From the NCBI RefSeq assembly GCF_003046545.1, contig NZ_QAAA01000005.1:1-64000 (forward strand): a stretch of 64,000 nt of DNA. The letters run 5' to 3'. Origin of the DNA: Rhodovulum imhoffii (lineage in GTDB: Bacteria; Pseudomonadota; Alphaproteobacteria; Rhodobacterales; Rhodobacteraceae). Positions within the stretch are counted from its first letter, which is position 1, and the number at the start of each line of letters is the position of its first letter. The notes under the pieces are model-generated. The model had not been told where the DNA came from, did no database searches, and saw only the letters and a program-made list of their open reading frames with translations. Shown here piece by piece: positions 46,247 through 48,645 of the stretch. The position numbers and the translations under genes were made by a program.

Positions 46247-46998
46247 CGCATGCGCAGCGCGCCATCCAGGCGGATCACCTCACCGTTGAGGTAGCCGTTC
46301 TGGATGATATGAAGCACCAGGGCCGCATATTCGCCCGGATACCCAAGGCGTTTGGGGCCGGTGACGTCCGCGGCAAGTGCATCCATGATTTCATCGCCCA
46401 GTCCTTCCAGCATGGGGGTTCGGAACACGCCCGGCGCAATTGCCATGATGCGGATCCCCAGCCCGGCAAGATCGCGCGCGACCGGAAGGGTCATGCCCGC
46501 AATGCCGGCCTTGGAGGCTGCGTAGGCCGCTTGCCCCTTTTGCCCGTCAAAGGCCGCGATAGAGGCCGTGTTGACGATGACCCCGCGCTCCCCCTCTTCG
46601 TCAGGCGTGTTGCGGGCCATTTCCGCAGCGGCAAGACGCAACACGTTGAAACTGCCCACTAGGTTGATTTCCAAGGTTTTTCGAAAGGCCTCAAGGCTGT
46701 GCGGCCCGTCCCGGCCCACGGTACGTTCGCCCGTGGCGATGCCAGCGCAGTTGATGCAGGCGGTAATGGCGCCCATCTGCTCTACGGCTTGTCCGATGGC
46801 CTGCGCGACGGAGGTTTCGTCGGTCACGTCCACGGGCTGAAAGCCGGCGCCGATCTCGGCGGCCAGTGCCGCGCCCCGCGCCGCGTCCCGGTCGAGTATC
46901 GTCACCGCAACGTCTTCGGCGCAAAGCGCCCGCGCCGTTGCCGCCCCAAGACCGGAGGCGCCGCCCGTGATGATGGCCTTTGTTTCGGAAATCTGCAT
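46243..46998 (-). CDS. SDR-family 3-hydroxyacyl-CoA dehydrogenase-like protein
   Basis: The 251-residue classical short-chain dehydrogenase has GGASGLGAATARAL (NAD site), NCAGIA, the catalytic Ser in NTASIAAFDGQ, YAASKAGI (Tyr/Lys) and PGVFRTPML. The pattern SIAAFDGQKGQAAYAASKAG matches the type II 3-hydroxyacyl-CoA dehydrogenase/HSD17B10 group, so fatty-acid or branched-chain acyl-CoA oxidation is likely. It diverges from cysS with a 249-bp gap that holds the cysS leader region. Confidence 0.88.
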   Translation of the reverse strand: MQISETKAIITGGASGLGAATARALCAEDVAVTILDRDAARGAALAAEIGAGFQPVDVTDETSVAQAIGQAVEQMGAITACINCAGIATGERTVGRDGPHSLEAFRKTLEINLVGSFNVLRLAAAEMARNTPDEEGERGVIVNTASIAAFDGQKGQAAYAASKAGIAGMTLPVARDLAGLGIRIMAIAPGVFRTPMLEGLGDEIMDALAADVTGPKRLGYPGEYAALVLHIIQNGYLNGEVIRLDGALRMR

Positions 46999-47118
46999 GT
47001 GTTTTCACTCCCTTGGTTTTTCGAAGTGCTAACGGCGCGGTGGAGGGCTGTCCAGCGGCGACCCGCAGGTGTGTGCTTTGGACTTGGCAAGGCCAGGGGG
47101 GGGTGCTAGGCAAGGTGT

Positions 47119-47160
47119 ATGAACATCGGTCTGCACATTACCTGCTGCATTACCGGCTGA
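47119..47160 (+). CDS. Candidate cysteine leader peptide upstream of cysS (13 aa)
   Basis: A 13-codon frame reads MNIGLHITCCITG and stops, with tandem TGC Cys codons at 47143-47148. AAGG lies at 47112-47115. It is 87 bp upstream of cysS and on the same strand. Its last codons form the 5' arm of a hairpin that competes with a second one downstream. A short peptide with repeated codons for the amino acid used by the following gene is the mark of ribosome-mediated attenuation. Expression is inferred; the frame is short. Confidence 0.45.
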   Translation: MNIGLHITCCITG

Positions 47161-47220
47161 CATTCGTCAGGCGGGCCGGTCTTCGTATTTTCATCCCTTT
47201 CCGAATGTGCCAAACCCGCC
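47152..47220 (+). promoter_or_regulatory. Alternative hairpins between the Cys leader peptide and cysS
   Basis: Hairpin A: ACCGGC-TGAC (47152-47161), loop ATTC, GTCA (47166-47169), five unpaired bases GGCGG, then GCCGGT (47175-47180), followed by CTTCGTATTTTC. Hairpin B: GGCGGG (47170-47175) with CCCGCC (47215-47220), and an inner TTCG/CGAA. The two share a base and overlap in space, so they should exclude each other. Confidence 0.4.
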
Positions 47221-47247
47221 GACACGCGCGTGAAGGATTTTGGACGC

Positions 47248-48645
47248 ATGAGTTCTATCAGGCTTTACAACACCCGGACCCGGACGAAGCAGGATTTCTC
47301 CCCGATCGACCCGGCCGATATACGCATGTATGTCTGCGGGCCGACGGTTTATGACCGGGCGCATCTGGGCAATGCCCGCCCGGTGGTGGTTTTCGACGTG
47401 CTGTTCCGCCTGCTGCGCCATGTCTACGGGGGCGGTCACGTCACCTATGTACGCAACTTCACCGACGTCGATGACAAGATCAACGCGCGCGCGGCCGCGA
47501 CCGGGCGCGAAATTTCCGCAATAACCGCCGAAACGACGCGCTGGTTCTTGCAGGACATGGGGGCACTGGGCGCGCTGGAACCGACCCACATGCCGCGGGC
47601 GACGGCCTATATCGGCCAGATGATCGCGATGATCGGGGATCTGATCGGGGCTGGCCATGCCTATGAGGCCGGGGGGCATGTGCTGTTTTCCGTGGCCAGT
47701 TACCCCGACTATGGCAAACTTTCAGGGCGTGCGGTCGATGACATGATCGCCGGCGCCCGGGTCGAGGTTGCGCCATACAAGCGCGACCCGATGGATTTCG
47801 TGCTGTGGAAGCCCTCCACCCCAGACCTTCCCGGTTGGGACAGCCCGTGGGGCCGGGGGCGGCCTGGCTGGCATATCGAATGCTCCGCCATGTCCCACGA
47901 CTTGCTGGGGGACAGTTTCGACATTCACGGCGGAGGCAATGACCTGATCTTCCCGCATCATGAAAACGAGGTGGCGCAAAGCTGCTGTGCGCACCCGGAG
48001 GGGGCATTCGCCAATTTCTGGCTGCATAACGAGATGTTGCAGGTCGAGGGAAAGAAAATGTCCAAGTCGCTGGGCAATTTCTTCACCGTGCGCGACCTGC
48101 TGGATCGGGGAGTGCCGGGGGAGGTGATCCGGTTTGTGTTTCTTTCCACCCATTACCGAAAACCGATGGACTGGACAGCGGAAAAAGCTCGTGAGGCCGA
48201 GGCCGTGCTGCGCAAGTGGCGGCACTTGACCGAAGGTGTGGAACCGGCCGCAGAGCTTGACCCGATGTTTCTGGACCGGTTGAAGAACGATCTCGACACG
48301 GCCGGATCCATCGCTCAGTTGCATTTCTTTGCCAGCCACGCGCACGAGGTTTCCGGTCAGATGCGATCTCAGTTGTTGGGGTGTGCGAACCTGCTGGGTC
48401 TTTTGACGCCAGAGCTTGGAACTTGGCTTGAGAGCAAGGATCTCGATCCGCTGGCGACCGAAAAGATAGAGGCGCTTATGGCTGAACGCTGGCAAGCGCG
48501 ACAGGCAAAGGACTGGCCCAGAGCGGATCGTATCCGCGACGGGCTGAACGCAGCCGGGGTCAGGATTCAAGAAAACAAGGACGGCAGCTACACCTACGAC
48601 CTGACCTCCGGTTTCGACCCCGCAAGGCTGAAGGGGCTGGAATGA
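47248..48645 (+). CDS. cysS: Cysteinyl-tRNA synthetase
   Basis: The 465-residue class I synthetase shows [18 protein letters not shown] (zinc Cys and HIGH-type motif), [36 protein letters not shown] and [18 protein letters not shown] helical anticodon-binding region and a C-terminal ([16 protein letters not shown]) complete it. ATG 47248 with AAGGA upstream is preferred; GTG 47230 is in frame. It is preceded by a candidate Cys leader. cimA follows on the same strand after 103 bp. Confidence 0.97.

Follow-up and report, generated by a model that had tools for sequence, protein, structure and literature searches.

The intergenic region in front of cysS, the gene for cysteinyl-tRNA synthetase, in the window (the analysed stretch of 64,000 nucleotides from Rhodovulum imhoffii) probably carries a ribosome-mediated, cysteine-responsive attenuator of that gene and is a member of the published motif uORFC-8-2; we put the probability of this reading at about 0.75. 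The original prediction had proposed a Cys-codon attenuator for cysS, and the comparison with related genomes supported this through conservation of the frame, the position of its Cys codons, compensatory changes in the alternative stems, and the presence of a U-rich stretch. The regulatory codons, those for cysteine, match the product of the controlled gene, and the response to cysteine itself is predicted.

The gene that follows the leader frame was identified as cysS by its match to the TIGR00435 profile (442.9 bits; cut-off 340), in agreement with the earlier assignment. The closest named relatives of the cysS of the window belonged to Rhodobacteraceae or to genera of Rhodobacterales. The neighbour on the other side, a minus-strand gene for an SDR-type reductase, starts at 46998 and is directed away from cysS. 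Because of the ends and orientation of these flanking genes, the region 46999–47247 is intergenic and presumably contains the cysS promoter. The following features were recognized:

47084..47089, plus strand: -35 box TTGGCA of promoter P1; the same or a similar box with the same spacing occurs in many relatives
47104..47112, plus strand: extended -10 element TGC-TAGGCA of P1 (hexamer 47107–47112), after a 17-nt spacer, ending 6 nt 5' of the ATG
47119..47160, plus strand: leader frame MNIGLHITCCITG of 13 codons, probably leaderless (sequence, family conservation)
47119..47130, plus strand: 5' arm of stem C, formed by the first codons of the leader frame (fold, covariation)
47143..47148, plus strand: TGC-TGC, the tandem Cys pair at codons 9 and 10 (sequence)
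47153..47174, plus strand: hairpin T, the hairpin A of the original prediction (fold; arm-swapping test weak)
47170..47175, plus strand: 5' arm of hairpin B, GGCGGG (fold, covariation)
47175..47186, plus strand: 3' arm of stem C, extending into the U-rich stretch (fold, covariation)
47180..47191, plus strand: U-rich stretch TCTTCGTATTTT, 3' of T and C (sequence; T enrichment family-wide)
47188..47216, plus strand: P2, a downstream promoter-like block (TTTTCA, 17 nt, CAAACC), weak in the window and of putative function
47215..47220, plus strand: 3' arm of hairpin B, CCCGCC (fold, covariation)
47233..47237, plus strand: Shine-Dalgarno sequence AAGGA of cysS (sequence)
47248..48645, plus strand: cysS, cysteinyl-tRNA synthetase, with its ATG at 47248 (TIGR00435 match)

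The leader frame reads ATG AAC ATC GGT CTG CAC ATT ACC TGC TGC ATT ACC GGC TGA, with the TGA at 47158–47160; both the frame and its two adjacent Cys codons had been described in this way before.

The conservation of the frame was studied in Rhodobacteraceae. The cysS gene was sought in 149 family genomes, each representing a different genus, and was matched in 144, the window's own included. Of the 143 other genomes, 137 provided upstream DNA, for 140 loci in total; G051, G093, G113, G129, G133, and G162 were left out, mostly because of broken matches. The frame count refers to 136 loci, from which the second cysS-like copies of three genomes and the locus at a contig end (L188, 149 bases) were excluded and among which poor cysS matches, such as G087, were kept. 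The scan accepted frames of 10–18 codons that start with ATG, have at least one Cys among the last eight residues, and lie 100–190 nt 5' of cysS. Such a frame was found in 119 of the 136 family genera versus 8.75 in dinucleotide shuffles, which rules out a chance frame, and a frame with at least two Cys in 96 of the 136 versus 1.25. On the reverse strand of the same genera, the corresponding counts were 12/136 and 5/136, and when the scan was moved 240 nt upstream they were 4 and 0. Applied to more distantly related bacteria (52 cysS loci, chiefly from alpha- and gammaproteobacteria), the scan yielded 12 frames with at least one Cys and one with at least two.

The frames of the family were also similar in composition. 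Counted from the C-terminal end, Cys occupied the fourth position in 78 and the fifth in 73 of the 119 frames, and Ile the third in 111. The Cys residues were adjacent in 70 of these frames, and 18 contained one Cys only. Across 120 frames (119 from the family and that of the window), TGC was used 300 times versus 25 for TGT, and the stop codon was TGA in 112. Within the window's own genus, the frame was kept in 9 of 16 genomes (8 with tandem Cys and one with a single Cys) and was missing from the other 7. Conservation in close relatives, whose lack the original prediction had named as a refuting outcome, therefore holds only in part, which counts to that extent against the reading; we regard absence of the frame as the exception, because the wider family mostly keeps it.

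Two observations on deviating loci were made. The seven genomes of the same genus without the frame (L003, L004, L007, L009, L012, L014, and L015) mostly retain a GTATTTCC...ATGTGCCAGAACCC-like block 5' of cysS, which suggests that the leader was lost in them and that the downstream promoter is relied on. At locus L224 (genome G029), the frame in the expected position, MNAPNRIIGIIIGG, is of normal length and ends with the customary stop but lacks Cys codons. The leader model R1, described below, still matches this locus at 32.3 bits, and its frame is possibly a leader that has lost its sensor codons.

When a promoter was searched for 0–15 nt 5' of the ATG, 114 of the 120 sequences (119 from the family and the window) had their best candidate ending 5–8 nt upstream of this codon, and the score reached at least 8 of 12 in 52/120, versus 3.0 in base-shuffled upstream DNA. 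Directly 5' of the ATG, 118 of the 120 have a pyrimidine, which is C in 105. Because of the distance from the -10 element to the ATG and the C at -1, the start site is predicted to coincide with the A of the leader ATG or to adjoin it, and the frame is probably leaderless. A near-leaderless peptide had been expected from the start, and these sequence data support it well. The ribosome-binding site that the original prediction placed before the frame was rejected, since a family-wide Shine-Dalgarno signal was absent there: the pairing energy with the anti-Shine-Dalgarno sequence was -3.35 kcal/mol versus -3.98 in shuffled DNA (n = 120), in contrast to -5.67 kcal/mol 5' of cysS. As for the proposed promoter, TTGGCA at 47084–47089 was retained, but GCTAGG as the -10 box would require a 15-nt spacer and was replaced by TAGGCA at 47107–47112, with the 17-nt placement shared by relatives. 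Consensus scans of the window called neither the P1 promoter nor the putative leader terminator.

A TG(C/A)TA box was present 15–70 nt before cysS in 8 of the 17 frame-less genomes of the family, with 1.1 expected; this set includes frame-like sequences that fail the Cys rule (e.g., L137, L224, and L233). Among the 120 frame-bearing sequences, 59 had both this box and a TTTC/TTCC element, and in 53 of these the element lay 20–21 nt 5' of the box. Judged by these motifs, P2 may be a further promoter that allows some cysS expression without the leader.

Both hairpins of the original prediction appeared in the folds. Its hairpin A (here T) consists of 47153–47155 paired with 47172–47174 (CCG/CGG) and 47157–47161 paired with 47166–47170 (CUGAC/GUCAG), with the last codons of the frame as its 5' arm. 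In hairpin B, 47170–47175 pairs with 47215–47220, and the fold lengthens it by 47166–47168 paired with 47221–47223. The scheme of A versus B proved incomplete, however, as it lacks a third and best-supported stem, C, in which the sequence following GGCGGG pairs with the opening codons of the frame. The Cys codons are enclosed by stem C and located 5' of T and B, and T and C are followed by the U-rich stretch.

The stems were examined with an arm-swapping test, in which the pairing energy of a genome's own arms is compared with that of arms from different genomes. For stem C, own arms reached -12.16 versus -9.62 kcal/mol for mismatched ones (p = 2.1e-15, n = 120), and an overlapping region located slightly (a few bases) earlier gave a similar outcome (p = 3.7e-13). 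In the control, the 5' arm of stem C against the 3' region of B, own arms gained nothing (-8.90 versus -9.34). Hairpin T varies little, and its test was weak (p = 0.05; p = 0.0025 with narrower arms). For hairpin B, the arm-swapping test within the family was not significant (p = 0.18); its covariation score was 0.118 versus 0.055 in shuffled alignments, 0 of 500 shuffles scored as high, and all slid versions scored lower. The outermost pair of B was C-G in 35, G-C in 33, and unpaired in 31 of 102 sequences, and three pairs of B had changed on both sides, a number reached in 18 of 500 shuffles. These counts come from alignment A1, which comprises the window and 101 of the 119 family frames, selected for the presence of both core motifs and for the usual length; because its rows were chosen for both cores, only the varying pairs of B count and the invariant ones prove nothing. 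RNAalifold on a MAFFT alignment returned three pairs only, all in B, probably because gaps misplace stem C, and the arm-swapping test was therefore used instead. Thus, the compensatory changes that had been suggested as a check were found in stem C and in hairpin B.

The U-rich stretch after T and C was also a feature of the family, with 5.2 T in the best 8 nt versus 3.0 after shuffling (n = 109). In the window, this stretch is interrupted by C and G and is not called by the terminator scan, and the fold of the window alone was no better than those of shuffled sequences (z = -0.23). Taken by itself, the window would therefore be unconvincing, and the case rests on the relatives. Partition-function folds of 106 family leaders gave mean values of 0.57 for C, 0.55 for T, and 0.21 for B in the free state; with a ribosome footprint masked on the Cys codons, the means for the same leaders were 0.18, 0.27, and 0.42, respectively. 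In this modelled stalled state, B exceeded 0.5 in only 42% of the 106 leaders. The predicted energy of the window RNA up to 47200 changed from -26.4 to -10.9 kcal/mol once the first Cys codon was in the A site. In the full leader of the window, the best fold contained B when the ribosome occupied the second Cys codon and lacked it when the ribosome occupied the first. Taken together, covariation and the constrained folds argue for mutually exclusive structures that would be switched by the position of the ribosome.

The mechanism we propose is as follows; of its elements, the comparison with relatives shows the frame, its Cys codons, the distance from promoter to ATG, and stems C and B, whereas the leaderless start, termination at the U-rich stretch, and the response to cysteine are predicted. 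Transcription would begin with the A of the leader ATG or a base beside it, and the frame would therefore be translated without a Shine-Dalgarno sequence. With ample Cys-tRNA, the ribosome would leave the 13-codon frame; stem C, from the first codons and the stretch after GGCGGG, and hairpin T, from the last codons and GGCGGG, would then form before the U-rich stretch, and transcription would terminate 5' of cysS. With scarce Cys-tRNA, the ribosome would halt on the TGC codons and cover the 5' arm of T, leaving GGCGGG free to pair with CCCGCC in hairpin B and allowing read-through into cysS. The second promoter, inside the leader, may supply a share of cysS expression that escapes this control.

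Other outputs of the same sensor were considered. A stalled ribosome could alter access to the cysS start instead of termination, and in the window such an effect is conceivable: in the free state, 47205–47214 pairs with 47239–47249 over the cysS ATG, hairpin B breaks this pairing when the ribosome is on the second Cys codon, and the window's own arms beat mismatched ones (-10.1 versus -6.6). However, the pairing is retained when the ribosome occupies the first Cys codon, and across the family own arms were hardly better than mismatched ones (-5.54 versus -5.05, p = 0.065, n = 94), so a family-wide stem over the cysS start was rejected. The U-rich stretch after T and C also counts against an effect on start access, and we consider it unlikely. 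An equally low probability is given to Rho-dependent rather than intrinsic termination, in which the leader ribosome would keep Rho off and B would shield the RNA. The imperfect U-rich stretch counts for Rho, which has been raised, in the available text of PMC1262725, as a weak prediction for mycobacterial Cys leaders without terminator hairpins; against it, the succession of stem C, T, and T-rich sequence recurs in the family.

It would be far less probable still that the conserved sequence is mainly promoter DNA, namely P1 and P2, with the short frame incidental. P1 is indeed conserved, and the TG(C/A)TA box is retained in frame-less genomes well above expectation, but promoters leave unexplained the in-frame ATG, the presence of two or more Cys codons in most genera, the fixed distance from Cys to stop, and the covarying arms. 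An attenuator that acts through the alternative stems and termination at the U-rich stretch thus remains the reading we favour.

The range of the element was explored with the covariance model R1, which was built from leaders of the family. At E 0.001, it matched 31 of 41 family genomes, once each and always just upstream of cysS, and many of these 31 leaders were part of the model's own alignment. A second leader copy in the window's genome was rejected, as the next matches had 15–21 bits versus 80.5. In 289 genomes of the class at E 0.01, R1 gave 14 matches, four of them in the family at 69–90 bits. The two best outside the family, in G268 and G220 (32 and 30 bits), lay just upstream of the respective cysS, and those in G210, G215, G226, G241, and G289 (23–24 bits) lay away from cysS and are probably false. 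Placement relative to cysS covers these seven of the ten outside matches, the others being in G378, G418, and G450. R1 thus recovers few leaders beyond the family. With Rfam 15, no model reached its gathering threshold in the whole 64-kb window; the two sub-threshold matches within 46950–47350 belonged to unrelated families and neither lay over the leader, so an Rfam identity was rejected for it.

Leaders in front of cysS were also noticed in Hyphomicrobiales, initially at loci of Rhizobium, Ensifer, Mesorhizobium, Devosia, Bradyrhizobium, and Phyllobacterium. The count for this order covers 70 of 87 matched genomes, nearly all top-ranked against the Ensifer protein, and since they were drawn from the top of this ranking, the sample leans to closer relatives. 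The genomes came from the order of G351, which was taken as Hyphomicrobiales because cysS in its genomes reaches up to 79% identity to the Ensifer query; G351 itself and G233 were not counted. A frame of 10–21 codons that has Cys among its ten C-terminal residues was found in 56 of the 70 (16 on the reverse strand), and such a frame together with a promoter (score at least 7, ending 4–9 nt before the ATG) in 42 of the 70 (3/70 on the reverse strand). In these 42 leaders, the base before the ATG was C in 35, tandem Cys occurred in 3, and 18 had one Cys only. The arm-swapping test was positive for C (p = 1.1e-5) and B (p = 3.9e-4), and the control pairing failed. Among the loci L282–L351, the stop codon was TAG in 37 of the 42, in contrast to the TGA that prevails in Rhodobacteraceae, a difference that is possibly due to the stem close to this codon. 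At a few loci of other alphaproteobacterial families (L255, L257, L260, and L276), cysS is also preceded by short frames that have Cys towards their end, e.g., MSNAHTIFICPIICR and MTAPRRSIIRISICS.

Position, promoter, and layout, rather than alignment, point to a common descent of the leaders of Rhodobacteraceae and Hyphomicrobiales. We lean slightly towards the view that they represent an old alphaproteobacterial device common to Rhodobacterales and Hyphomicrobiales, in which the first codons of a leaderless Cys frame form an arm of the terminating stem, one 100-nt RNA reads both its 5' start and the stalling at Cys, and a second promoter behind it provides basal cysS expression. A search of open PubMed Central papers yielded no published cysS leader for Hyphomicrobiales or Alphaproteobacteria, which is weak evidence of absence. 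A motif of this kind, or a close analogue, in a second order with genetic models such as Sinorhizobium/Ensifer would make the cysteine response directly testable.

Among known systems, the closest is uORFC-8-2 (Brewer et al., 2021; PMC8632094), a name that was found in this paper only. The original prediction knew of no described case for cysS in Rhodobacterales, but according to the available text of that paper, 145 examples had already been published, only upstream of cysS and only in Rhodobacterales. They are described there as an AUG frame with tandem Cys codons, UGC being dominant, and two stems, the first of which contains the Cys codons, with a U run thereafter, and they were interpreted as ribosome-mediated attenuation. 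The leader of the window likewise lies directly upstream of cysS in a Rhodobacterales host and has an AUG frame with tandem TGC. By this fit to what the paper describes, the window contains a member of an already known kind of element. The Cys pair usually, though not necessarily, occupies positions 14 and 15 in uORFC-8-2 but positions 9 and 10 in the window; in the family frames with adjacent Cys, the pair starts at 8–10 in 63/70 and at 14 in 1/70. This gap may reflect a different choice of AUG. A leaderless start and promoter spacing, predicted here, are not mentioned for uORFC-8-2 in the available text of PMC8632094, nor does that text report an experiment on the motif. The present analysis thus assigns the element to a published motif and corrects its stems and its start, the latter as probably leaderless; relative to the literature found, including that text, it adds the predicted leaderless start, stem C, and a range beyond Rhodobacterales.

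Similar devices have been reported from more distant systems, in the available text of the sources cited here. In mycobacteria, leaderless polycysteine short ORFs are reported to act as cysteine-responsive attenuators (Canestrari et al., 2020, cited in PMC9094748); the leader of the window resembles them in being short, predicted leaderless, rich in Cys codons, and putatively responsive to cysteine. The actinobacterial Cys leaders of PMC1262725 have no conserved terminator hairpin and precede cys operons, unlike the leader of the window, which precedes cysS. Within Alphaproteobacteria, the trpL RNA (rnTrpL) of Sinorhizobium meliloti is reported to begin directly at the ATG of its leader frame, which has 14 codons (PMC7298713; PMC10117765). 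It is thus an alphaproteobacterial attenuator with the ATG at the 5' end of the RNA, as predicted for the window, although it senses Trp and controls trpE(G).
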